A stretch of DNA of 64,000 nt from Commensalibacter oyaizuii (GTDB lineage: Bacteria > Pseudomonadota > Alphaproteobacteria > Acetobacterales > Acetobacteraceae). The stretch is taken from assembly GCF_029953265.1 (NCBI RefSeq), contig NZ_JASBAO010000001.1:930001-994000 (forward strand). Direction: 5' to 3'. Positions 9,989-53,745 of this stretch are shown here, piece by piece. Numbering within the stretch: position 1 is the first letter of the stretch; each line of letters starts with the position of its first letter. The notes beneath the pieces are model-generated. The model was not told where the DNA came from. It did no database searches and worked only from the letters and a program-made list of their open reading frames with translations. Made by a program: the position numbers and the translations under genes.

Positions 9989-10441
9989 ATGATTAATCCC
10001 AAAATATTACTTCGACAAACATTCTTTAAGCATCGTGCTTTACTTGTACAGTTTATCAAATTTGGTATGGTAGGGTCTTCTGGACTGTTAATTGATACGT
10101 TAACGGTATATATGCTACGCCCCTATATTGGATTAACATTTGCAACCATAGCGGGATATTTTATTGCTGCAAGTTCCAATTGGATTGTTAATCGTTTATG
10201 GACTTTTCATACTGTAAAAGCCGACCATTCTTTGCTTTCACAGTGGCTACGTTTTATAGCAACGAATAGTATGGGCTTTTGTTTAAACCGCGGTACTGTT
10301 TTTTTATTATTTTTTCTTAGCAATACTTGCCGTCAACATATCTATATTGCATTAATTGCAGGGGCAATCATGGGAATGCTTGCCAATTTTAATCTATCAC
10401 GCAAGCTAGTCTATACGGATCTATTTTCTAAGAATGATTAG
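9989..10441 (+). CDS. GtrA-family membrane protein
   Basis: 150 aa with four predicted membrane segments, the standard GtrA topology. Typical features are the N-terminal FIKFGMVGSSGLLIDTLTVY, then AGYFIAASSNWIVNRLWTF and a final segment ending NFNLSRKLVY. GtrA proteins are thought to help move undecaprenyl-linked sugars across the inner membrane for glycosylation of surface polymers. The partner glycosyltransferase is not adjacent, although three glycosyltransferases lie 10-17 kb away. Few residues are diagnostic beyond the membrane pattern and the NWxxNRxWTF motif. It starts only 18 bp after the ompA terminator and converges on tenA. Confidence 0.85.
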   Translation: MINPKILLRQTFFKHRALLVQFIKFGMVGSSGLLIDTLTVYMLRPYIGLTFATIAGYFIAASSNWIVNRLWTFHTVKADHSLLSQWLRFIATNSMGFCLNRGTVFLLFFLSNTCRQHIYIALIAGAIMGMLANFNLSRKLVYTDLFSKND

Positions 10442-10446
10442 CAATT

Positions 10447-11151
10447 TTATAAATATTGCGAACGTCCTACATTCCAAAAGGCCGTTTCCAATTTCACCGC
10501 CGTTCTGAATTGTTCCAATAACATTGAATACCGTTCCTCGCCCCCTCTTTGTCGAGCCAAACGCTCGAGAACGGTTAAGCTTGTGTGAATAAGCTCTAAA
10601 TATTCATTCCCTGCATAAAGATCAATCCAAGATTGATATGGGTTATTCATTTGATTGGTATTAGGATCTATTAACATTTTTAGTCCAATCTCTCCATACC
10701 CAACCAGACACGGCATCAATAAGACGATTAAATCTAGTAAATCCCCTTGCATCGCCTTGCTTAAAAGATATTGAGTATATGCTAGTAATTCTAAAGTTTT
10801 AGGGCTGGAATTTACCTCTTTTTCAGACATTCCCCATTCTTGACAATATTTTATATGTAGTGGCAATTCGATATTAACCAATCCATGAAGTAAAGATGAA
10901 AAATATTGCATATCTTGAAATTGATCGCTCTTGTAAACAGCCAAAGCCTCTACACGACAATAATCAAGTAAATACAAATAATCCTGAACTAAAAACTTCT
11001 TAAATTCTTCCTGATTCAGAGTCCCCAAGGCCAATTCTTTCACAAATCGATGTTGTGTAAATTGCTGCCAATCCTGACCACAATCGGCACGAAAACGCCC
11101 AATTAATCCCTGATCTAATAAAGATAGTGTATTTTTAATAACAGCCGACAT
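10447..11151 (-). CDS. tenA: TenA-family aminopyrimidine aminohydrolase (thiaminase II type)
   Basis: 234 aa all-helical TenA/PQQC-like protein. The active-site cysteine is in LMPCLVGYGEIG, and the aromatic/acidic pocket segments DYLYLLDYCRVEALAVYK and NPYQSWIDLYAG are present. TenA salvages the thiamin pyrimidine moiety (4-amino-5-aminomethyl-2-methylpyrimidine to HMP). No other thiamin gene is nearby, and the 158-bp upstream region holds no recognisable TPP riboswitch. It is divergent from alaS and converges on gtrA with 5 bp between the two genes. Confidence 0.88.
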   Translation of the reverse strand: MSAVIKNTLSLLDQGLIGRFRADCGQDWQQFTQHRFVKELALGTLNQEEFKKFLVQDYLYLLDYCRVEALAVYKSDQFQDMQYFSSLLHGLVNIELPLHIKYCQEWGMSEKEVNSSPKTLELLAYTQYLLSKAMQGDLLDLIVLLMPCLVGYGEIGLKMLIDPNTNQMNNPYQSWIDLYAGNEYLELIHTSLTVLERLARQRGGEERYSMLLEQFRTAVKLETAFWNVGRSQYL

Positions 11152-43406: not shown

Positions 43407-44084
43407 ATGTCTATTTTGCACTCGATCCGTTCAAGTATCTGTAAACCCCATGCCGCAAGCCATCCTTTTTTGATTTGTTCTGGCCTTATTGCAATTTTAG
43501 GGCGTATGTCTCCGTGGCGTATTACCCGATTAATTGGTAAGCTGAGTGTACTATTTTTTGGCTTTTGTTGGTATTTCTTTCGTAATCCCAAACGGGTTAT
43601 TCCTACTGATGATCAAAATATTGTCTCCCCTGCTGATGGAACGGTTTCCTCAATTGACTGTGTAATGCCACCAGCCAATTTAGGTATGGATGAAAAACCA
43701 GTTTGGCGCGTTTCTATTTTCTTGTCGGTATTGAATGTTCATTTACAACGTATCCCCGCCAAGGGCAAAGTGACAGCACGTAGCTATATTGAAGGGAAAT
43801 TCTTAAATGCCTCTTTAGACAAAGCATCAGAACATAATGAACGCAATGCAATCTGTCTGACCTTGCCCAATCAGCAAAAACTAATTGTTGTTCAAATTGC
43901 CGGATTAATCGCAAGACGGATTGTTTGTAACGCTGTGGTTGAAAATAATTACAATATGGGCGATATTTATGGTTTAATTCGTTTTGGATCACGGGTTGAT
44001 TTATATTTACCAGAAGGATGTCAACCGAATGTGCAGGTTGGGCAAACCATGATCGGTGGGGAAACTATTGTCTCTAAACTCTAA
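43407..44084 (+). CDS. psd: Phosphatidylserine decarboxylase proenzyme
   Basis: 225 aa, the short alphaproteobacterial Psd type. An N-terminal hydrophobic region (~20-55, FLICSGLIAILGRM and LFFGFCWYFFRNP) is followed by IVSPADGTVSSID, FLSVLNVHLQRIPAKGKV and the self-cleavage site in LIRFGSRVDLYLP, where Ser would become the pyruvoyl group. It converts phosphatidylserine to phosphatidylethanolamine. It overlaps pssA by up to 29 bp, so the two consecutive enzymes are coupled. Confidence 0.94.
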   Translation: MSILHSIRSSICKPHAASHPFLICSGLIAILGRMSPWRITRLIGKLSVLFFGFCWYFFRNPKRVIPTDDQNIVSPADGTVSSIDCVMPPANLGMDEKPVWRVSIFLSVLNVHLQRIPAKGKVTARSYIEGKFLNASLDKASEHNERNAICLTLPNQQKLIVVQIAGLIARRIVCNAVVENNYNMGDIYGLIRFGSRVDLYLPEGCQPNVQVGQTMIGGETIVSKL

Positions 44085-44976
44085 TAATATCCGTCCTAAC
44101 TTACGTCGTGCTCGGCGTAAATTGTTATTGCGTCAAAAAATACGACCAAGGGTCAAAGGTATATCTTTCAACCGTGTTATTCCTAACCTTTTAACATTAT
44201 TGGGATTATGCGCAGGATTGATTGGTATTCGAAGCGCCATTCATGGACAATTCGCTGAAGCTGCTATTGCTGTATTGATTGCAGGCTGTTTCGATGGATT
44301 GGATGGACGTATTGCCCGTTTATTACGTGGCACCAGCCGATTTGGTGCAGAATTGGACAGCTTGGCTGATTTCTTATCATTTGGAATTACCCCAAGCTTC
44401 ATTCTTTACATGTGGGCTTTAAAAGATGGGGGGGGATATGCCTTTGTCCCTTGTGCCATGTTTACAGTTTGTATGGCATTAAGATTGGCACGGTTTAACG
44501 CAGCCTTAGACGATATTGATAAACCAAAATATGCCAGCAACTTTTTTACAGGTGTTCCTGCGCCTGCCGGGGCTGGGATGGTTTTATTTCCGATATTTTT
44601 AGGATTAGAAGCTGAAAAATTACAATGGGATTTCTTAATCGATATTGCCAATTCTCAGATTTTGACAATGATTACCTTGGTTGTTGTTTCGTTTTTGTTA
44701 ATTTCAACTGTTCCCATATGGTCGTTTAAAAACTTTAAGATCCCCGCTGCATACTTGTTACCTTTGTTTTTAGGCACTGCAATTTATGCAACAGTTCTGG
44801 TTGCTGATCCGTGGGGAACTCTTGCTTTTAGTGGTCTTTTATATCTTTGCTCTATTCCCTTTAGCTATCGCAGCTTTCGCCAACTGAAGGCTGATGCTGC
44901 TGCACTTGAGAAGGAGGCTGACGAGGCTGATGATCAGGATGAGGAAGACCAAGCAACTTTAACAACCCCTCCATGA
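44056..44976 (+). CDS. pssA: CDP-diacylglycerol--serine O-phosphatidyltransferase
   Basis: 306 aa from GTG 44056; a TTG at 44068 preceded by GGGGA is an equally good start. The CDP-alcohol phosphatidyltransferase motif DGx2ARx8Gx3Dx3D is perfect (DGRIARLLRGTSRFGAELDSLAD), with about seven membrane helices. It makes phosphatidylserine, the substrate of Psd. The C-terminus is an acidic low-complexity tail (EKEADEADDQDEEDQ) whose last 116 bp are also read on the other strand as the 3' end of the HyfI-like gene. Confidence 0.94.
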   Translation: MGKLLSLNSNNIRPNLRRARRKLLLRQKIRPRVKGISFNRVIPNLLTLLGLCAGLIGIRSAIHGQFAEAAIAVLIAGCFDGLDGRIARLLRGTSRFGAELDSLADFLSFGITPSFILYMWALKDGGGYAFVPCAMFTVCMALRLARFNAALDDIDKPKYASNFFTGVPAPAGAGMVLFPIFLGLEAEKLQWDFLIDIANSQILTMITLVVVSFLLISTVPIWSFKNFKIPAAYLLPLFLGTAIYATVLVADPWGTLAFSGLLYLCSIPFSYRSFRQLKADAAALEKEADEADDQDEEDQATLTTPP

Positions 44977-45403
44977 TTTGCTGGGGGGCCGGGGGACAGC
45001 CTTCAATTTGTAAAATACAGTCATCTCCCCCTGTAGTTTCTTTTAAAACGGCATAGTTTTCTTCGAAAACCCCTTTATCAATTGCACAAAACCCAATGGT
45101 TACAATCGCCTTGGGTTCTGGCATCAAAGCCCAATTTTTCTCTAAATACGGAATCATTGCACGGGTTAAAACACCACTAATTAACATTATGTTTGCAATT
45201 GCAGGGTGATCAACAAATGCAATGCCACTGGCAGTGATATCAAATGCCCCTCCCCTTAATGCCAACAGCTCTAAAATACATCCATTGCAATCACCACAAG
45301 GCACAGGAAATAGATGTAAGATCTGATTGTTACTTCCAATGGTTTTATCAAGAGGCTTTATTTTTCCAAAAACAGAATCAACCAATGCACGTAAAATAGC
45401 CAT
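44861..45403 (-). CDS. HyfI/NuoB-like [4Fe-4S] small subunit of an Ehr-type complex
   Basis: 180 aa. Homologue of the small subunit of group 4 hydrogenases and of NuoB. The cluster cysteines are kept: Cys36/Cys39/Cys42 in CGDCNGC followed by Glu45, Cys106 in GFCAIDKG and Cys136 in GCPPAP, enough for one proximal (N2-like) [4Fe-4S] cluster. The core ends near residue 142; residues 143-180 are a Pro/Gln/His-rich tail (HPDHQPRQPPSQVQQHQP) encoded antisense to the pssA end. It is the last of six packed minus-strand genes and starts 11 bp after the large-subunit gene. Confidence 0.88.
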   Translation of the reverse strand: MAILRALVDSVFGKIKPLDKTIGSNNQILHLFPVPCGDCNGCILELLALRGGAFDITASGIAFVDHPAIANIMLISGVLTRAMIPYLEKNWALMPEPKAIVTIGFCAIDKGVFEENYAVLKETTGGDDCILQIEGCPPAPQQIMEGLLKLLGLPHPDHQPRQPPSQVQQHQPSVGESCDS

Positions 45404-45414
45404 TTAAAGTCCTT

Positions 45415-46953
45415 TTATAAATCAACCCCAGTTGATAAAATACCAAATGAAGATCTGATTATTGATTGGTTTTCCCATGTCTCGTTTTGTAACAGATCTC
45501 GTAAAACATAGGCTTGATTAGCCGCAGGATCACGAATAAAAATATCCTTAATTTTCCCAGCTTCGACCTTTACATAATACCATAAATCGCCTTGAACCCC
45601 TTCGCAAACACCAATCCCCTCTCCGTATAATGTTTCAACAATGATTTTATTGGGTTGGCTTGAATCTTCATCCTCGACATCTTGCAAAATGGTTTCAATA
45701 ATTTCAAACGCATTGTCAATTTCTTGAAATCGCAATTGCATGCGCGCTAAAACATCCCCAGTTGTAAAAGTACGCGGGGATAGCCATTCCAAACGGTATT
45801 CAGGCATATAACGACGGATATCAATATCCCTTCCCGATGCCCGGCCGATTATACCCCCAATATTAAAACGAATGGCTTGCTCAACACTTAACACACCAAC
45901 CGATTGCAAGCTATCAATTAACCCTGGGAAACCTTGGCTTAATTTCTTAGCCTCACAGTAAAGATATTTAACCTTATTTGGTAATGTTTCCTTATCTTCT
46001 TCACCATTGAGAGTTGAGGGACGCACTGTGCCAGGGAAAACACAATCCATCAACCAGCGATGACCATAATAATGCGCGCACCAACGCATTAAAAGCTCGC
46101 GCGCTAATTCACAACGGGTTGCAATAATACCAATACCTAACCCCCTAAATAAATGAGATAAATATAATAAATGGGCAATAACTTTGGATATTTCAGATAA
46201 AATAACACGTTGACGTAAAACATACGTACTGGGAATAAATTGTGCCACATCCTCTATCGCGTGAGAGAATGCAATTTGATGGGCAATACTATCGACAGCA
46301 TTAATTCGACTGATTAGAGGTTGTACCTGTAAAACATTCTTGCCATATAAATTAGATAAAATCCCGCGGTGGGTATAACCATACAAGGCATTTGCCTTCA
46401 TAATTTGTTCCCCCATTACAGAAAAATGCCATAATGACGGAGATATACCATTACAAGAAGAGGGATCAATAATAGAAACCTCCCCTCCTTTTTGTTCTAA
46501 ATCACCAGGAATATTATAGTCATAGGGTTCAATCGAACTGGCAACAGGCCCAGGTTTGTCAGATAATGGCCACGTATTTTTCCACATTCCTCGATCCAGC
46601 CAAGGGCGCAGCTCCATTATGGCGTTCATAGCTTCTTTACCCCATAAATCCCAAATCATACGCTCATAGATAATAGCTGCGGGCCTGACAGATGACACAG
46701 CCCAATATCGATCAACAGACAACGCAACTTTTACACCTAAGGGACGAAAACCATTTTCCAAAAATAAAACATTTAAATCCATCTGATCACACCACATTGC
46801 CAAAAAGACCAGACGATCATGCAATAATTTTGAAATAATTTCCCGCCATTCTGGTTCCTCGACCCGAAAGAAAAACTTGCTCTCACGCTGATGTTTTTTA
46901 ATTAAATCAGTCGCTTTCGTGTGCGTCACTGGAGCCTGAGATAAAGAGGTCAA
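45415..46953 (-). CDS. HyfG/HycE-like (NuoCD-type) large subunit lacking the [NiFe] cysteines
   Basis: 512 aa. Residues ~1-145 are a NuoC-like domain and ~170-512 a NuoD/[NiFe] large-subunit domain (LYGYTHRGILSNLYG, SRINAVDSIAHQIAFSHAIED, LRQRVILSEISKVIAHLLYLSHLFRGLG). Hydrogenases have CGIC at the position that here reads N218-A-V-D221, and DPCxxC at the C-terminus that here reads FGILSTGVD within residues 498-512. All four metal-binding cysteines are thus absent and the protein cannot carry a standard [NiFe] centre. NuoD quinone-site residues are not evidently kept either. Overlaps the HyfF-like gene by 4 bp. Confidence 0.88.
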   Translation of the reverse strand: MTSLSQAPVTHTKATDLIKKHQRESKFFFRVEEPEWREIISKLLHDRLVFLAMWCDQMDLNVLFLENGFRPLGVKVALSVDRYWAVSSVRPAAIIYERMIWDLWGKEAMNAIMELRPWLDRGMWKNTWPLSDKPGPVASSIEPYDYNIPGDLEQKGGEVSIIDPSSCNGISPSLWHFSVMGEQIMKANALYGYTHRGILSNLYGKNVLQVQPLISRINAVDSIAHQIAFSHAIEDVAQFIPSTYVLRQRVILSEISKVIAHLLYLSHLFRGLGIGIIATRCELARELLMRWCAHYYGHRWLMDCVFPGTVRPSTLNGEEDKETLPNKVKYLYCEAKKLSQGFPGLIDSLQSVGVLSVEQAIRFNIGGIIGRASGRDIDIRRYMPEYRLEWLSPRTFTTGDVLARMQLRFQEIDNAFEIIETILQDVEDEDSSQPNKIIVETLYGEGIGVCEGVQGDLWYYVKVEAGKIKDIFIRDPAANQAYVLRDLLQNETWENQSIIRSSFGILSTGVDL

Positions 46954-48278
46954 GGTGAACCTCCATGAAGTTTTACAAATTCAATTGCAATCATATGTAG
47001 CCACTTGGATGTAAAAATAGGCAGTAATACTGTCTGTAATATCAGTAGACCAATAATGACTTTTGCCTCTTTCGTTAATGGAAATTTAGGGAAGAAAAAT
47101 ACACCTCCTCTTTGAAATAAAACGTATCCCCTAATCAGCAATAGACATAAAACACCGATTCCAACCCAAGGCATCCAGATCATTAAATATGACATTAATA
47201 AGGAACAAGCCCAAAATATTCCAATCGGGGGAAACCCCGATAATCCCAACATGATCCAGCTTTCAAATGAAGACAAATTATTTGTTTCTTTTTTACTGAC
47301 CATATATCCAAGTGGGGCAAAAATCACCAGTGCCATCATAAATAAACAAGATATATAAACACCTTCGGGGTGATTAGCAAAAATACCGCCACAAATAGCC
47401 AAAGTAATCAATAAGTTAGCACTTAAGTAAAGAGAAGACCGTTCACGATTTTGCTCATTTAACAAAATAAAACATAAACTAATAATCACTAAAGCCATTA
47501 ACAAAGGTTCAGAAGGGTCATAACTGGGGATCTGATGTAATCTTAACAACGTTGCAATTACAGGTATCGATAAAATAAATGAACCGATCCCCCCCAGTGT
47601 AATTGGCATTTCAACATTTAATCTTAGAAAAGAAATAGACATTGGAAACAACCCTGCTGCTAACACCACACCAAGACTTAAAACGACACTACTCAACTGT
47701 GCTAGAAAAGGTGCATTGTCCACAGGAACAGCTGCCAGTAAAAAAGCTCCTATCAACGCCATAATAATTAATAACAATATATATCGAAAAACCGCCCACC
47801 CTGCTTTTAAACTGCTTCCTCCTTGATTTAAAATACATCCCATCATCAATAAAGCAGCTAAAACCACAATAAAGAGGAGTGCAATAAAAAGATTATTAAC
47901 CCCTACAGCCAAAATTGCTGTGGCGGTAATAATATGAAATAATAACAACGTCCATAAGTGCCGTTTTTCTGATTTATCAAAAAACAGACTGCGTGGTGAC
48001 CAAAATGTTAATAACAGGGTCGATACCCCCGCCCCCACTGCAATAATCAACCGTAAAAAACGGGTTAAACCATCGCTGCTCCACACCACAGATAGAAAGA
48101 AATTGTCAGCCATACAGGCTGAAAGTCCTGTTAAAATGACTAAGATACCAGATACAATAAAATGGCACCTTGCCCGCGCCGCGGCCCCCTCACAGGCAAA
48201 GATTCCAATAACCCCAACAAATGGCCAAATCACACAAGCCCAATAAAGTATTTTTGCCAAATCATTGGATGTTTGCAC
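46950..48278 (-). CDS. HyfF/NuoN-like antiporter-type membrane subunit
   Basis: 442 aa with about 13 membrane helices. Related to the Mrp-antiporter-like subunits of complex I and hydrogenase-4 (HyfF is 526 aa in E. coli, so this one is shorter). Recognisable parts are the Pro-rich broken helix region (LSGFPPIGIFWACSLLMSYL) and charged residues inside membrane segments. It would form a proton or sodium channel driven by the peripheral arm. Translationally coupled to the large subunit by a 4-bp overlap. Overall conservation is modest, and the assignment relies partly on neighbours. Confidence 0.82.
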   Translation of the reverse strand: MQTSNDLAKILYWACVIWPFVGVIGIFACEGAAARARCHFIVSGILVILTGLSACMADNFFLSVVWSSDGLTRFLRLIIAVGAGVSTLLLTFWSPRSLFFDKSEKRHLWTLLLFHIITATAILAVGVNNLFIALLFIVVLAALLMMGCILNQGGSSLKAGWAVFRYILLLIIMALIGAFLLAAVPVDNAPFLAQLSSVVLSLGVVLAAGLFPMSISFLRLNVEMPITLGGIGSFILSIPVIATLLRLHQIPSYDPSEPLLMALVIISLCFILLNEQNRERSSLYLSANLLITLAICGGIFANHPEGVYISCLFMMALVIFAPLGYMVSKKETNNLSSFESWIMLGLSGFPPIGIFWACSLLMSYLMIWMPWVGIGVLCLLLIRGYVLFQRGGVFFFPKFPLTKEAKVIIGLLILQTVLLPIFTSKWLHMIAIEFVKLHGGSP

Positions 48279-48280
48279 AA

Positions 48281-48814
48281 TTAAAACCGCCCTATTCTAT
48301 GAACAATAATAAAAGACATAAGTAAAAATACCCCATAAAACACCATAAGCGTAATAAAGGCAAAAAATTGGCCGTTTAATCCCACCACCAAAGATAAGGC
48401 ATTCAATGCACAGGCTATACCTACAATTTGCCCTCCGATCGTTTTACTTAAGATGCTATACACCATTCCTACAAGAATAATTGAAAACACAATGCCATAT
48501 TCCAGCCTGGGAAGGGATGGCGGTAAAATATAAACAATTAAAGATACAGCCAAAATGATAAATACTAGGGCCAAAAATAACTCAACAAACGAGCGATAAA
48601 AGGATTGCCATCTCAAAATAATGGTCAAACTGATCCCTGAAACACATGACAGACCCATGCACCACAATGTTATCACAGGATCTAGGGCAGTGGCGTACCC
48701 CGCCCACAGACAAAATACTGTTAAAAACGCATGAAAGATAACCTGAACAGAAGGATGTGATACCCCACCAATTGTTGCTAGTAACAAGATACTCATAAAC
48801 AAGGAAAGCCACAT
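48281..48814 (-). CDS. HyfE-like membrane subunit
   Basis: 177 aa with about six membrane helices and few charged residues, the layout of hydrogenase-4 component E (a NuoK-like subunit; 216 aa in E. coli). The last part (VGIACALNALSLVVGLNGQFFAFITLMVFYGVFLLMSFIIVHRIGR) resembles the NuoK-type core. Such subunits form a link between the antiporter modules and the quinone-site module. The call leans on gene order (between HyfC- and HyfF-like genes, 2-bp gaps on both sides). Confidence 0.75.
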   Translation of the reverse strand: MWLSLFMSILLLATIGGVSHPSVQVIFHAFLTVFCLWAGYATALDPVITLWCMGLSCVSGISLTIILRWQSFYRSFVELFLALVFIILAVSLIVYILPPSLPRLEYGIVFSIILVGMVYSILSKTIGGQIVGIACALNALSLVVGLNGQFFAFITLMVFYGVFLLMSFIIVHRIGRF

Positions 48815-48816
48815 CT

Positions 48817-49761
48817 TTACTCTCCACTCAATCCCGCGAAATACACAATAATCGCCAAAAAACTTAGTACTACAGCGATCCCCACACGATAAATACCATT
48901 AGATACTAACAATAAACTGCGCATCATCGCCAAGACAAAACATTCGAATATAATTTTGGTTAACCATGCCATCAAAGCAAAAGGCACAGCCTTCAACCAA
49001 ACCATTAAATTATGAGGATTATCATCCAAAATGGCTATACTTTGTGGCCACAGACAAAAAGCGATAAGCGATAGCCACACCAAGAATTGCACATCATTAA
49101 CATATAATAACAATCCACGATCTGCACCACCAAAACCATCCATTCCTTCTCTGCTTGGGAAATTTGGCATGTCCCATATCAAAAAAAATAGGGAACTTGC
49201 CCCAATAAGTAATGGGCAAAAAGCCATAATTTGAAAGTCGCCGGGTTGATGGAAAAAAACAACAACTTCATTTAATAAAGTACTGCCTGTACTGAAGCGT
49301 AAAATGGTTAATATAAATAATAACACAGGCAAAAAGAACAACATATCTATTAAGTTACGTTGTAATAATTTCAAACTTTTTAAGGATGGATATCGCAAAG
49401 CAATTAAAAAAAAGGATATGGGAATAATCATTAATAAACAAGTAACAAGCAAAAAATCAGATATTGATGCAGTAATCATCCCCGCTGTAAAGCTGGGCAC
49501 CAACAAAGCGGCAATAATTACCGATCCCAATGCAATAAAAGGTAATAAAGAGGTATATGAATAACTGCTTGTCAAAAAACCTGATAATTTTTTTATATTT
49601 ACTGAATAAATTTCACCCCAGTAAAACCAAAATGGTACTGTTGGCAAGCCTTGAATTTTTGATTCCATCCATTTTTCAACCCCCATAATCCAAGGGGCAA
49701 TTAATAAAATAATTGCTAAGTGAAAAATCGTTGCAACCAATACAATTAACCAAAACCCCAT
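48817..49761 (-). CDS. HyfC/NuoH-like membrane subunit
   Basis: 314 aa with eight or so membrane helices, the length of HyfC/HycD (about 320). The loop FPSREGMDGFGGADRGLLLYVNDVQFLVW corresponds to the NuoH cytoplasmic loop that contacts the peripheral arm, although its Glu-rich signature is diverged. NuoH-type subunits anchor the large subunit and relay conformational change to the antiporters. It follows the HyfB-like gene by 4 bp and precedes the HyfE-like one by 2 bp. Confidence 0.82.
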   Translation of the reverse strand: MGFWLIVLVATIFHLAIILLIAPWIMGVEKWMESKIQGLPTVPFWFYWGEIYSVNIKKLSGFLTSSYSYTSLLPFIALGSVIIAALLVPSFTAGMITASISDFLLVTCLLMIIPISFFLIALRYPSLKSLKLLQRNLIDMLFFLPVLLFILTILRFSTGSTLLNEVVVFFHQPGDFQIMAFCPLLIGASSLFFLIWDMPNFPSREGMDGFGGADRGLLLYVNDVQFLVWLSLIAFCLWPQSIAILDDNPHNLMVWLKAVPFALMAWLTKIIFECFVLAMMRSLLLVSNGIYRVGIAVVLSFLAIIVYFAGLSGE

Positions 49762-49765
49762 GATT

Positions 49766-51619
49766 TTACCGTGCGATCAAACTAATTGATAATAATCCCA
49801 ATCCAACCATTACCAATATTAATTGGTCCTGATACTGCCAAATCACTATATTTACTTTGTTCGTAAACCTAAAATACCTACGCTGGAAATAAATCCATTG
49901 TATTCCTAAATAACGTGCGCTGGTAATAGCGGGATGAACAAAAGGAAAGCGGCTTTCTAGCATAAATTGAAAGCTAGCTTGGCCAAATCCAAAAGAAGTT
50001 TCATCAATATTTTTTATACGTGGCGAATAGGTTGCCCCTTTAAAAGAACTAATGGGTAAATTTGAATTCTTTTTATGCTCGCGCTTCGCTATCCAGCCAA
50101 TGACCATTACAATACCAATAAATAGTAAGATGACCTCCCAGGGTGTAAAGGTCACATGATTAACGACATTACTGAAAGTAAGAAAAGCATGTGAATAATC
50201 AGTTAATCCCATAACTTGCGTTGAAATCATACGCGCCATACTTAAAATCAAGCCAGGGACCAGTGAAAACAATAATAAAAGCAGCAACCAACCCTTAACA
50301 GAATCAAAATTACGACGGGAAAAATAATCAGGAAAAGTTATAACAGCATTTTGTAGAGCAGGAATACCACCAGTTAAAATCAATCGCATCCATCCTAATA
50401 TCGACAAAATAAATACGCCTGCGTTCAAGCCTATAGCTAGGGTTGTGATTAATGTGCCAATGAACTGATTACCTAACGGTAAAGCCAATAATAACTGCAA
50501 ATTACCCCAAAGAAGGGAAAAACCTGCAAATGGAGGAAAACCAGATATGATAAAACTTAAAAACAATAAAGAAATCAAAATATAGGGAGAGAAAGCCAGA
50601 CCTATACCTCTTGATTGTTGGTCAAGGCACACTCTTGCCACCAATATAAATGCCAATGAAAATCCGATAAATTGAATGAAAAAACCAAAATACAAAATGT
50701 CATTGGCAAAAATAATCCATGGGGGATTTACATTAATTGTAAATGCTGAAAGGATACCTATGGTTTGAACCAAAATCCCATTACTAAGAATAAATAGACA
50801 ATTAATTCGCTCGTAAACGGTCTTTACAACCAAACTGTTCCATCCTGCAGCAATTGCCCCAATCAAACCAATGAGTTCTAAGAAAGTAGATAATACAACC
50901 CGATCACTGTTTCTGCCTAAATCCAACCAAAAACGCAGCAATAAATAGATCCCTGCAATCGACAATACTATATGAAAAAAACTGTATAACAATGTGCCTT
51001 GGCTGCTTTTTGCAATCATCAGTCGCCATTTCCCAAACGGGAAAAAACCCAACAATGTTACGCTGCAAATTTCAATAAAAAATAAAATATACGGCGAAAA
51101 ACTGAGTTGACGCAAAGCATCAAACGATAAATAGGAAAAATTATTTTGAAGATTAACTGTACTTGGAAATAGCAAGACGGAAATAAATAACCCAGCCAAA
51201 CCTATTAATGGTGAAGATGTCTTTTTTGAAAAAACACCATATATCATCATAATTAATAAGGATAAAAGGATAACCAGAAAATATAAATTACTGGATAATA
51301 GTAATAACTGCGTTAAAATATAAGGGAATGCAAAGTATTGGGAGAAACTTAACTCTGCTTTAAAAGAGAGGAATAATGCCCCTGATAGAAATAAACAAAA
51401 AAGACTAAAAGCATTTAAGGGATCTAGATAAAATTCAACCCCAAAAACAGAACCTAGCAAGGGGATAAAGGCCGAGGCTGATTTCAGTTGGAAAATTAAC
51501 AAAATAAAAGTAAGCACACATCCCAATATTGATCCGACTAAAGGAACATTTATTAAATAGGTCAAGGATGATCCTTTGTCGGATCCTTTCCTTCCCATTA
51601 TTACCCCGTCAATTGCCAT
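49766..51619 (-). CDS. HyfB/NuoL-like antiporter-type membrane subunit
   Basis: 617 aa with about 16 membrane helices; first gene of the Ehr-like cluster. Proton-conducting-transporter family segments include GVEFYLDPLNAFSLFCLFLSGALF, WNSLVVKTVYERINCLFILSNGILVQTIGIL and SGFPPFAGFSLLWGNLQLL. E. coli HyfB has 672 residues. The start is unsure: ATG 51619 lacks a ribosome site, ATG 51598 or a TTG near 51565 preceded by AAAGGA are alternatives. With the HyfF-like protein it gives two antiporter-like modules. Confidence 0.85.
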   Translation of the reverse strand: MAIDGVIMGRKGSDKGSSLTYLINVPLVGSILGCVLTFILLIFQLKSASAFIPLLGSVFGVEFYLDPLNAFSLFCLFLSGALFLSFKAELSFSQYFAFPYILTQLLLLSSNLYFLVILLSLLIMMIYGVFSKKTSSPLIGLAGLFISVLLFPSTVNLQNNFSYLSFDALRQLSFSPYILFFIEICSVTLLGFFPFGKWRLMIAKSSQGTLLYSFFHIVLSIAGIYLLLRFWLDLGRNSDRVVLSTFLELIGLIGAIAAGWNSLVVKTVYERINCLFILSNGILVQTIGILSAFTINVNPPWIIFANDILYFGFFIQFIGFSLAFILVARVCLDQQSRGIGLAFSPYILISLLFLSFIISGFPPFAGFSLLWGNLQLLLALPLGNQFIGTLITTLAIGLNAGVFILSILGWMRLILTGGIPALQNAVITFPDYFSRRNFDSVKGWLLLLLLFSLVPGLILSMARMISTQVMGLTDYSHAFLTFSNVVNHVTFTPWEVILLFIGIVMVIGWIAKREHKKNSNLPISSFKGATYSPRIKNIDETSFGFGQASFQFMLESRFPFVHPAITSARYLGIQWIYFQRRYFRFTNKVNIVIWQYQDQLILVMVGLGLLSISLIAR

Positions 51620-51796: not shown

Positions 51797-52255
51797 TTAT
51801 ACGCCTTTTCCCCATCCCTTATCGGTCTGCTTCCAATAGGTTAAATCGTGGCCATTTTGTTTTAATAAACGCCATCGTTGGCGTGCTTGTTGCACAGCGT
51901 CGGGATCATTACCATCAAATAAATCAAACACACGTTTAAACGCTGTCAAATTGACCTCGGATTGTCCTCCAACCAGAAATAAAAATGCTGCTTGATTCAG
52001 ATTCTCTTCAAATACGGTCAACCAAATGGGTTGCCATTGTGGAAAGTCATCTTGATTGTCAGAAGTATGGCATCCATGGGGCAACCATATCGGTTGGGAT
52101 ACACGCCATAAAGCCTCTGTTAAACCTTGCACTTGTTGATCATCTTTGCACAGAACCAAGCCCCGCTCATTAGCCTGCATCGTTCGAATTAATAAAAGCG
52201 GTAAAGCCTGTTGCAAATCTGTTTTCGTTAAGTGATAAAAGCCAACAGAGGCCAT
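51797..52255 (-). CDS. holC: DNA polymerase III chi subunit
   Basis: 152 aa from ATG 52255 (MASVGFYHLTKTDLQQAL), with AAGGA 8 nt upstream; the open frame reaches into pepA, but family members start with this SVGFYHL. Conserved features: ALPLLLIRTMQANERGLVL, then LTEALWRVSQPIWLPHG and TVFEENLNQAAFLFLVGG, FKRVFDLFDGNDPDAVQQARQRWR. Chi links the clamp loader to SSB. The pepA-holC pair with an 11-bp gap is standard in proteobacteria. Confidence 0.9.
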   Translation of the reverse strand: MASVGFYHLTKTDLQQALPLLLIRTMQANERGLVLCKDDQQVQGLTEALWRVSQPIWLPHGCHTSDNQDDFPQWQPIWLTVFEENLNQAAFLFLVGGQSEVNLTAFKRVFDLFDGNDPDAVQQARQRWRLLKQNGHDLTYWKQTDKGWGKGV

Positions 52256-52266
52256 AAAATTAATCC

Positions 52267-53745
52267 TTAACCTTCGTAATGCTCTTGAACCAACTGATTT
52301 AATAAGCAAACCCCAAACGAGGTTGCCCCTTTGGGCCCACCGTGTGTTCCCTTACCAGTATAAGCCGTTCCAGCGATATCTAAATGTACCCAAGGGGTGT
52401 CATTGACAAAGCGCTGTAAAAATTGCGCCGCTGTAATTGATCCACCATCGCGACCCCCAATATTTTTCATATCAGCAAATTGTGCATCCAAAGCCTTGTC
52501 ATAAGCAGGGCCCATGGGCATGCGCCAGACTTTTTCGCCAACATTATTACCAATATCTGATAAACGTTTAGATAATTCATCATTATTGGAAAATAGACCT
52601 GCATATTCATATCCCAAAGCCACAACGATGGCCCCAGTAAGCGTTGCAAGATTGATCATAAACCGAGGTTTAAAACGATCCTGAGTATACCACAAGATAT
52701 CTGCTAATACTAAACGTCCCTCTGCATCCGTGTTCAAAACTTCAATGGTTTGACCTGAGGCACTGGTAACGATATCACCTGGACGTTGTGCATTGCCAGA
52801 CAACATATTTTCAACTAATCCAACAACGCCGATAATGTTGGCTTTGGCTTTGCGTGTTGCCAAGGTTTTCATTAACCCAACAACCGTAGCAGCCCCCGCC
52901 ATGTCCATTTTCATGTCTTCCATACCGCCTGCGGGCTTAATGGAAATCCCTCCAGAATCAAAGGTTACCCCTTTTCCTAAAAATGCTAATGGGGGCTCTT
53001 TATTTTCAGGATTACCTTTCCACTGCATAATGACAGTTTGCGGTTCGGCATCACTACCTTGGGCCACGCCTAATAACGCGCCAAAGCCTAGTTTTTCCAT
53101 TTCAGCCTTGTTTAAAATTTCAACAGAGACGCCCAACGCCTCTAATTCTTTGATGCGTTTTGCAAATTCTGGAGGGGTTAACCGATTTGCAGGTTCATTA
53201 ACCAAATTTCTGGTCAAATAAGCACCACTAACAACGGCGGATAAGCTCACCCAATCTTTTTGACCTGCTTCATAGTCAGAGGTTAAAAACAAAATATCCC
53301 TCAACTGTTTTTGGTCTTCTTTTTTGTTTTTTTGCATACAGTACACGTTAAATTCGTAAACACTTAAAGTCGCACCCAGTGCAATATATGCAGCATATTC
53401 TGTGAACTGCCAGTCAGCCATCATTACTAATGAAGTGGTCTTACCTTTTAAACTTTGAGCGGCATTCCCCCCAACTTGACGAGCGTACGCTTTTGAAAAC
53501 TGATCTTGTTTACCAAGACCAACCAACACAACATGACTGTATACATCATTAGGGGAAACTAATTTACAAATTTCGCCCAATTTTCCTGTAAAATTCTCTA
53601 CTTTCATTGCACGGGTTAACGCACCGTCCAGTGCCTTATCCATTACCCGCACAGAATCCCCTTGTTCACCATCTTCGAAAGTAAAAAGAACAATATCTCC
53701 ACCTTCTGGCTTTTTTAAACCTGCAAACTGTACTGTTGGTATCAT
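52267..53745 (-). CDS. pepA: Leucyl aminopeptidase (M17)
   Basis: 492 aa. The C-terminal catalytic domain has the M17 features: GKGVTFDSGGISIKP (Lys, Asp), MKMDMAGAATV, the signature NTDAEGRLVLAD with its Asp/Glu zinc ligands and Arg, and GGSITAAQFLQRFV. The N-terminal ~170 residues are the variable macrodomain-like part. It is a hexameric cytoplasmic aminopeptidase; in enterobacteria PepA also binds DNA in Xer recombination, not shown here. First gene of the pepA-holC unit. Confidence 0.95.
   Translation of the reverse strand: MIPTVQFAGLKKPEGGDIVLFTFEDGEQGDSVRVMDKALDGALTRAMKVENFTGKLGEICKLVSPNDVYSHVVLVGLGKQDQFSKAYARQVGGNAAQSLKGKTTSLVMMADWQFTEYAAYIALGATLSVYEFNVYCMQKNKKEDQKQLRDILFLTSDYEAGQKDWVSLSAVVSGAYLTRNLVNEPANRLTPPEFAKRIKELEALGVSVEILNKAEMEKLGFGALLGVAQGSDAEPQTVIMQWKGNPENKEPPLAFLGKGVTFDSGGISIKPAGGMEDMKMDMAGAATVVGLMKTLATRKAKANIIGVVGLVENMLSGNAQRPGDIVTSASGQTIEVLNTDAEGRLVLADILWYTQDRFKPRFMINLATLTGAIVVALGYEYAGLFSNNDELSKRLSDIGNNVGEKVWRMPMGPAYDKALDAQFADMKNIGGRDGGSITAAQFLQRFVNDTPWVHLDIAGTAYTGKGTHGGPKGATSFGVCLLNQLVQEHYEG

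Follow-up and report, generated by a model that had tools for sequence, protein, structure and literature searches.

A hydrogenase-4-like operon in Commensalibacter oyaizuii predicted to encode an Ehr-type complex lacking both the [NiFe] ligands and the proton-channel residues

The locus and its gene content

The stretch of Commensalibacter oyaizuii DNA that was analysed, hereafter the window, comprises 64,000 nucleotides. Six minus-strand open reading frames in the order hyfB-C-E-F-G-I lie between positions 44861 and 51619, and adjacent frames are separated by gaps of 2–11 nt or overlap by 4 nt. A preliminary description had reported six packed hyf genes in an acetic-acid-bacterium-like genome, in agreement with this layout and with the host, a Commensalibacter species (insect-gut acetic acid bacterium). 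The features of the locus are as follows.

51797..53745, minus strand: holC and pepA, upstream neighbours with conserved synteny, outside the complex
49766..51619, minus strand: hyfB, 617 aa, antiporter-like membrane subunit (open reading frame and profile match)
48817..49761, minus strand: hyfC, 314 aa, NuoH/HycD-like membrane anchor (open reading frame and profile match)
48281..48814, minus strand: hyfE, 177 aa, hyfE-like membrane subunit, the weakest identification (23.1 bits)
46950..48278, minus strand: hyfF, 442 aa, antiporter-like membrane subunit (profile and AlphaFold2 model)
47658..47660, minus strand: Ala207 codon of HyfF; in E. coli HyfF the aligned residue is TM7 Lys232
45415..46953, minus strand: hyfG, 512 aa, large subunit, NuoC+NuoD/HycE-like, without [NiFe] ligands
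46291..46302, minus strand: N218-A-V-D221, place of the N-terminal CxxC in HyfG (alignment)
45427..45438, minus strand: L506-S-T-G509, place of the C-terminal CxxC in HyfG (alignment)
44861..45403, minus strand: hyfI, 180 aa, small subunit, NuoB/HycG-like, with Cys39, 42, 106 and 136 kept
43407..44976, plus strand: genes which we take to be psd and pssA, convergent and downstream, with conserved synteny, outside the complex

Matches to Pfam and NCBIfam were obtained for HyfG and HyfI only, and HyfB, HyfC, HyfE and HyfF gave none at E 0.01. Profiles of relatives, searched against a set of 14 E. coli proteins, recovered HyfB (195.9 bits), HyfC (94.9), HyfF (139.9), HycE (200.0), HycG (139.8) and, weakly, HyfE (23.1). 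The operon contains no electron donor gene, and HyfA, HyfD and HyfH are absent from it. A scan for promoters and terminators yielded nothing that bears on the interpretation.

The vacated [NiFe] site and the retained cluster cysteines

Cysteines C241/C244 and C531/C534 of HycE align with N218/D221 and L506/G509 of HyfG, and G504, just before L506, stands in the alignment where the canopy Asp would be. The substitutions first read by eye at the two CxxC places were therefore recovered by alignment, with RINAVD beginning at residue 216 and SFGILSTGVD at residue 502. The four cysteines were not found elsewhere in HyfG: the seven that remain (55, 167, 281, 292, 304, 333, and 450) give no CxxC pair, and the motifs have thus not been relocated. 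HyfG does not possess the four cysteine ligands of a group 4 [NiFe] hydrogenase, and HypD (PF01924) was not found in the window genome by a search that picked it up in 4 of the 14 genomes used as controls.

At the complex I quinone site (NuoD His38/Tyr87, Thermus numbering, for which E. coli NuoD HPSxH and RxxY were taken as equivalents), HyfG has I170 and A219; a separate NuoD is present in the window genome. Both NuoD residues are described as quinone-binding in the available text of PMC7684303. Judged from its sequence, HyfG lacks the [NiFe] ligands, the quinone-site residues and the canopy Arg/Asp. It is possible that a putative substrate site lies where the [NiFe] centre used to be. The best structural match of the HyfG model, which like all our AlphaFold models is a single chain, was HycE (7z0s_E; Z 40.9, 3.2 Å, 485 residues); complex I chains equalled that Z, but were aligned over about 350 residues.

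Cys39, Cys42, Cys106 and Cys136, previously pointed out in the small subunit, are indeed among the HyfI cysteines. The four cluster cysteines occur in 129 of 132 HyfI rows and in every complete row but one (some genomes were entered twice, by handle and by name, in this count as in the signature table, the tree and the motif counts). HyfI retains the four cysteines predicted to hold one [4Fe-4S] cluster. Much of the peripheral-arm sequence is retained in the window complex, including, in HyfG, the peripheral proton path positions HycE His284/Arg395/Glu437. In 9 of the 20 genomes searched, HyfI is distant from HyfG yet present.

Loss of the channel residues in the membrane arm

The complex had been proposed to pump cations, which the membrane subunits do not bear out, since HyfB and HyfF lack their proton-channel residues and HyfC its E-channel residues. 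In window HyfB, the TM5 Glu, TM7 Lys/His, TM8 Lys, TM11 His/His/Lys and TM12 Glu are all replaced. The positions of HycD R108/E130/E138/E189/E206 are occupied by P/N/L/M/R in window HyfC. The checked residues are listed below.

HyfB: EKHKHHKE in most pump-type rows (the TM8 Lys is Asn in many beta-proteobacterial ones), SLGIGQFL in the window
HyfF: EKHHHK in most pump-type rows, VASFLA in the window
HyfC: REEEE in most pump-type rows, PNLMR in the window
HyfG: ERN in most pump-type rows, SQG in the window

Pump-type rows have the channel and E-channel residues; the window and the majority of the rows that we call hollow do not. The residue comparison set 25 intact against 28 lost loci of 60, the window included; this split was defined by HyfB and HyfF residues, which leaves only HyfC and HyfG as an independent comparison. 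Seven loci were left out because they were truncated, wrongly assigned or intermediate (L070, L076, L077, L082, L083, L085, and L087), and the intermediate L092 was counted among the lost loci. In an alignment-free search, none of the 45 hollow HyfF rows and none of the 36 hollow HyfB rows had the TM7 motif, and the TM11 motif appeared in 2 and 1 of them, respectively.

Pump-type rows have 72 conserved ionizable columns (≥90%) in HyfB, C, E and F together, and hollow rows 5 (≥80%); in HyfG the corresponding counts are 50 and 31. Seven named loci had been removed from this count as duplicates, six being the same contigs as retained loci and one, L098, another genome wrongly removed. The AlphaFold2 model of window HyfF (pLDDT 90.2) has an antiporter fold along its whole length and matched MbsH with Z 36.3 (3.3 Å, 423 residues). 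HyfF is therefore modelled as retaining the full antiporter fold even though the channel residues are lost.

A relocated proton path was rejected, because not one ionizable column of HyfF reaches 80% conservation among the hollow rows. The helices of window HyfF contain 11 interior ionizable residues, and window HyfB has a Lys at the position of HycC His222, which is often occupied by Arg, Glu or Lys in the other hollow rows. The window species could have ion-path residues of its own.

Phylogeny, selection and decay

In the tree, the hollow forms make up one clade inside the Acetobacteraceae, with intermediates. One branch separates all hollow rows (SH-aLRT 94 and 89), and the intermediates L129 and L131 are placed elsewhere. 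In all six two-copy genomes that were read, a partly degenerate copy stands beside a copy intact at the checked sites. Full six-gene Ehr operons are found in many genomes of other Pseudomonadota and Nitrospirota, so that the Ehr class is not new; it also has a literature, of which Marreiros 2013 is said to be a review. The suggestion of an undescribed system therefore needs narrowing to the hollow form, of which full-text literature searches returned no description.

All six genes are under purifying selection. Every dN/dS that could be estimated was below 0.5, except for a HyfE value of 0.65, which came from a mis-joined match of 55 codons. Median values in canonical and hollow forms, from non-independent pairs with several dS values near saturation, were.106 and.318 for HyfB,.092 and.295 for HyfC,.044 and.154 for HyfE,.069 and.284 for HyfF,.185 and.256 for HyfG, and.114 and.171 for HyfI. 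HyfB, C and F thus evolve faster in hollow forms than in canonical Ehr. The pair L033-L034 gave 0.04–0.09 across all six genes. The HyfE values of L101-L106 and the PepA/HolC values of L109-L047 were artefacts and were set aside, and L108-L040 compares a genome with itself.

Open HyfG frames persist in distant genera; among the 20 genomes searched, HyfG is broken in G126 and was not found in G116. At eight loci where HyfB seemed to be missing, a multi-helix frame of 369–501 aa occupies the hyfB slot, with a kinship to HyfB (hhalign probability 0.1–96%) that is strong only in some. L039 has a full-length HyfB (99.9%), and the search at L091 yielded no hyfB-slot frame of at least six helices. 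Given the faster B, C and F, the short frames in the hyfB slot and the two genomes with HyfG broken or not found, some relaxation or decay among relatives is real.

Neighbouring genes and candidate partners

Of the 45 hollow rows, 26 carry an aldo/keto reductase gene upstream of hyfB and in the same orientation, compared with 7 of the 85 pump-type rows (15 and 7 when a narrower distance is applied). The window operon has no such gene beside it, nor do the other Commensalibacter loci, one genome (L036/L099) excepted. The best match to it in the window genome reached 37% over part of the protein; this partner was not adopted. A formate dehydrogenase partner was also rejected on a search of the molybdopterin family, which gave two matches in the genome: one adjoins the nuo region, and the other is a 1236-aa frame, presumably nitrate reductase. 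Gene neighbourhood gave no clue to the substrate either: no shared partner gene was recognised around seven named canonical Ehr loci, whose ORF lists were read by eye.

Interpretation of the hollow form

Relatives of complex I are usually interpreted as pumps. The best reading of the hollow Ehr is an uncoupled, membrane-anchored redox or scaffold assembly. Because the catalytic metal site and the channel residues are lost and the genes are still protected, the complex probably has another job in the membrane. We give a probability of roughly 0.6 to a hollowed-out Ehr, that is, a six-subunit complex without [NiFe] site or proton-translocation residues, largely uncoupled and membrane-anchored. 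The HyfG/HyfI peripheral dimer and its cluster would be the working part, receiving electrons from some partner and passing them on to a small molecule or a partner protein while no ions are pumped, and the membrane subunits would serve as anchor or scaffold. We infer that the window complex may carry out electron transfer without ion transport. With odds slightly better than even, a complex I relative has turned non-energy-conserving in acetic acid bacteria: its catalytic site and pump were taken apart step by step, perhaps alongside a second, intact Ehr copy, and the cluster-bearing remainder was retained for a new function in redox chemistry, sensing or scaffolding.

A structural or assembly scaffold without redox turnover, whose subunits would stabilise other membrane complexes, is a possible though clearly less probable explanation. 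The same family offers a precedent, since its 'deranged' bc1 and COX1-like proteins are thought, in the available text of PMC10715153, to be retained for structural roles, and the membrane arm has hardly any conserved ionizable positions. However, a pure scaffold would need none of the cluster cysteines that almost every HyfI keeps, and complex I is not a general client, because HyfG is kept in 11 of 20 genomes, many of them chosen for a single match, in which NuoD fell below the cut-off.

A slowly decaying relic without current function is improbable: the faster membrane subunits, the short hyfB-slot frames of some relatives and the damaged or missing HyfG would fit it, but the low dN/dS of L033-L034 in all six genes, the open large-subunit frames in distant genera, the conserved synteny and the presence of HyfI even where unlinked argue against it. 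Least probable of all is the cation-pumping redox complex with a substrate site that was originally put forward. It draws on subunit homology and the antiporter fold, but the channel and E-channel residues that pump-type rows possess are missing in the window and most hollow rows, and the alignment-free motif search agrees with this loss.

An uncoupled, membrane-anchored hollow Ehr would complete a series from intact complexes through intermediates to a conserved channel-less form, which would reveal dispensable parts and separate redox chemistry from pumping. Many acetic acid bacteria are used in industry or reside in insect guts, and an annotation as hydrogenase-4 or as energy-conserving would mislead in this group.

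Comparison with known systems

E. coli hydrogenase-4 and hydrogenase-3 (Hyf/FHL) have homologous B, C, E, F, G and I subunits; unlike them, the window system has no [NiFe] ligands, HyfA/HyfD/HyfH, HypD or channel residues. The MBS of P. furiosus resembles the window complex as a group-4 relative in which two of the four NiFe ligands and the quinone-binding His/Tyr are gone. It is described, in the portion of PMC7684303 available, as having two proton pumps and a three-cysteine cluster formed after a three-residue shortening. In contrast, the CxxC spacing of HyfI is unchanged and shows no shortening relative to HycG, so that a three-cysteine, site-differentiated proximal cluster is not predicted; as its ligand spacing differs from that of MBS, an MBS-like cluster catalysis was rejected. 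The 'deranged' bc1 of Acetobacteraceae is likewise a respiratory complex retained after the loss of metal ligands, but it is an unrelated complex, and 'hyf' has 0 occurrences in the main text of PMC10715153.

Ehr complexes are defined by the absence of the [NiFe]-coordinating CxxC motifs (available text of PMC10284858). The earlier Ehr-type assignment holds, as the window encodes a group-4/NuoD homologue without CxxC motifs, together with proximal cluster cysteines and antiporter-like subunits. Ehr complexes are suspected of transporting ions (available text of PMC6349859), a property outside the Ehr definition. The window complex lacks the Lys/His/Glu ion path and the E-channel expected of the ion-translocating complex I superfamily. 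Canonical Ehr of the Roseomonas-clade, Bradyrhizobium and Cupriavidus loci has the same six subunits in the same order and, like the window complex, has lost the [NiFe] cysteines and kept the four cluster cysteines; a [NiFe] site was lacking in every Ehr relative that was read. Its large-subunit signature is near-uniform (mostly Ser/Ser/Ser/Gly with Glu, Arg and Asn), and the window shares only the Gly. Unlike the window complex, canonical Ehr keeps nearly all proton-channel residues; it is a presumed pump.

Identity and gene order of the operon

The energy-converting hydrogenase-related (Ehr) operon is found on contig 1 of the 2.41 Mb C. oyaizuii genome, in the window covering positions 930001-994000.

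44861-51619, minus strand: hyfB, hyfC, hyfE, hyfF, hyfG, and hyfI, six genes filling the span

Only two of the six products, HyfG (large subunit) and HyfI (small subunit), were matched by Pfam and NCBIfam. The gene names of the preliminary description nevertheless hold, because profiles built from relatives matched the E. coli counterparts of all six proteins, the HyfE match being weak (23.1 bits). The nearest named loci by HyfG identity were those of Commensalibacter communis (77%), C. papalotli (76%), an uncultured Commensalibacter (60%), and C. melissae (59%).

Loss of ion-path residues in the membrane arm

The ion-path residues of E. coli hydrogenase-3 (FHL) are listed in its structure paper (PMC9474812). 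In 25 Ehr loci of the pump type (canonical), the checked HyfB, HyfC, and HyfF positions were retained in at least 23, with the exception of the positions of HycD Tyr102, Glu199, and Glu201, which carried a different residue in all 25. The window complex is of the hollow type, lacking these residues: the path positions read EKHKHHKE in pump-type loci versus SLGIGQFL in the window for HyfB, EKHHHK versus VASFLA for HyfF, and REEEE versus PNLMR for HyfC. The complex had been described as cation-pumping, a view that these replacements do not bear out. The HycC His222 position of HyfB was occupied by Lys in the window and by another charged residue in most hollow rows, so that charge, as judged from the alignment, can persist there in hollow HyfB.

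Across a larger set of rows, conserved ionizable columns numbered 20, 24, 8, and 20 in HyfB, HyfC, HyfE, and HyfF of pump-type rows (≥90%) versus 3, 1, 1, and 0 in hollow rows under a looser bar (≥80%); with the same bars, HyfG had 50 versus 31. Alignment-free searches detected the TM7 motif in 0/36 hollow HyfB and 0/45 hollow HyfF rows, and the TM11 motif in 1/36 and 2/45. In pump-type rows, the TM11 pattern was found in 73/76 HyfB and 85/85 HyfF, and the TM7 pattern in 71/76 HyfB and 32/85 HyfF, the last count being low because the pattern was too strict. The HyfF model (pLDDT 90.2, pTM 0.92) resembled antiporter-like chains along its length (MbsH, Z 36.3, 3.3 Å, 423 residues, with many tied; Bacillus Mrp chain, Z 36.0). 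Window HyfF is thus predicted, from model and alignment, to have kept the antiporter fold and lost the proton path.

In eight loci (L043, L044, L048, L049, L050, L063, L086, and L090), the hyfB slot was occupied by an ORF of 369-501 aa, shorter than HyfB and with multiple helices, whose HyfB kinship was strong in some loci only.

Metal and cluster sites

HycE C241/C244 and C531/C534 aligned with N218/D221 and L506/G509 of window HyfG, in agreement with the loss of [NiFe] ligands claimed earlier. None of 140 large-subunit rows had more than one cysteine in these four columns and three had one, among them L142, whose sequence ends before the second pair. The FHL structure paper (PMC9474812) also names Arg478 and Asp529 of HycE as canopy residues; in the window, Gln and Gly stand in their place. 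On the peripheral proton path, the positions of HycE His284, Arg395, and Glu437 were retained in the window. I170 and A219 of HyfG stand at what we take to be the equivalents of His38 and Tyr87 of Thermus NuoD. These two NuoD residues are described as quinone-binding (PMC7684303). HypD was searched for in the C. oyaizuii genome and was not found. The complex is expected to carry out neither hydrogen chemistry nor quinone chemistry of the standard kind.

The cluster cysteines of HyfI had also been reported as retained, and indeed all four were complete in 129/132 HyfI rows. Two of the other three rows end at contig ends; the third, L147 (Acetobacteraceae bacterium KSS8, HyfI at ~10164-10622), has a Ser aligned at the fourth cysteine and is the sole complete row lacking four. 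Columns conserved in both types at the 85% level numbered 43 in HyfG and 25 in HyfI versus 11 in HyfB, 4 in HyfC, and 6 in HyfF. The HyfG model (pLDDT 83.9) best matched HycE (Z 40.9, 485 residues); complex I chains equaled HycE in Z, but were aligned over only ~350 residues.

Distribution in the family

HyfG matched 293/299 Acetobacteraceae genomes. Matches worse than 1e-12 (37 of the 293, counted from the table) may be NuoD alone, yet genome G029, with such a match, has an Ehr; the strong remainder (256/299) are survey matches, only some of them checked individually. An unbroken large-subunit match above NuoD level was obtained in 18/20 chosen genomes, the exceptions being G126 (broken) and G116 (NuoD-level match only). 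The G126 gene (G126:C1:1813617-1814969) was matched as several separate pieces, its counterpart in same-genus G046 is an open frame, and G126 HyfI has a stop within the match. The operon was flanked by pepA/holC and pssA/psd in 15/20 family loci. HyfI was present but distant from HyfG, on another contig or in a remote place, in 9/20 genomes (G228, G149, G259, G085, G192, G008, G001, G046, and G126).

An aldo/keto reductase gene lies directly upstream of hyfB on the same strand in numerous Acetobacteraceae loci (L036, L037, L039, L044, and L112 among them), in two different genomic neighborhoods; none is beside the window operon.

Selection and phylogeny

dN/dS was 0.04-0.09 for all six hyf genes in the Commensalibacter pair L033-L034. 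Median canonical/hollow values, from eight pairs of each type that are non-independent, differ in genus and base composition, and include Commensalibacter pairs with high dS, were.106/.318 (B),.092/.295 (C),.044/.154 (E),.069/.284 (F),.185/.256 (G), and.114/.171 (I). These medians are well under 1 throughout, with the strongest constraint on the membrane subunits in canonical Ehr and the weakest on B, C, and F in the hollow type, where E is still constrained. In Gluconacetobacter pairs, dN/dS of the membrane genes was higher than that of most flanking genes.

In the HyfG tree, all 45 hollow rows fell to one side of a single branch (SH-aLRT 94), with the intermediates L092 and L070 directly outside, and a smaller tree agreed (22 hollow rows, one branch, SH-aLRT 89); both trees come from quick searches and have open forks, and the hollow clade contains long branches. 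Six genomes chosen for showing two large-subunit matches (G083, G147, G191, G151, G113, and G076) each have two Ehr copies. One copy always belongs to a second clade (17 rows, support 90) and keeps the residues at the checked sites, save for Gln in place of one HyfF His; the other is partly degenerate. In G151, G113, and G191, the degenerate copy was readable in part only, and G099 is represented by its second-clade copy alone. This coexistence in 6/6 genomes suggests a release from constraint during co-occurrence with a second Ehr, an association in which intact single-copy status rests on match counts. No second copy was seen in the acetic acid bacterial genomes searched for large-subunit matches. 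The partly degenerate copies L206 (G076) and L204 (G113), each alongside an intact second copy, occupy separate tree places, and channel loss may thus have had more than one start.

Possible role and comparison with known systems

We favor, with a probability of about 0.6, a putative uncoupled, cluster-bearing redox or scaffold complex. A pure scaffold ranks next and seems rather unlikely; it is a reasonable reading because Acetobacteraceae have other "deranged" respiratory proteins, described as supposedly retained for structural roles (PMC10715153), but complex I cannot be its sole client, since 11/20 genomes have no NuoD above the cut-off and nonetheless retain this HyfG.

Ehr complexes form an established class whose function is described as unsettled (PMC10284858, PMC6349859). 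Judged by its residues, the window Ehr is distinguished by the loss of those of the pump. Its subunit set is presumably the same as that of M. tuberculosis Rv0082-Rv0087. The names of the latter genes are listed in PMC6901956.
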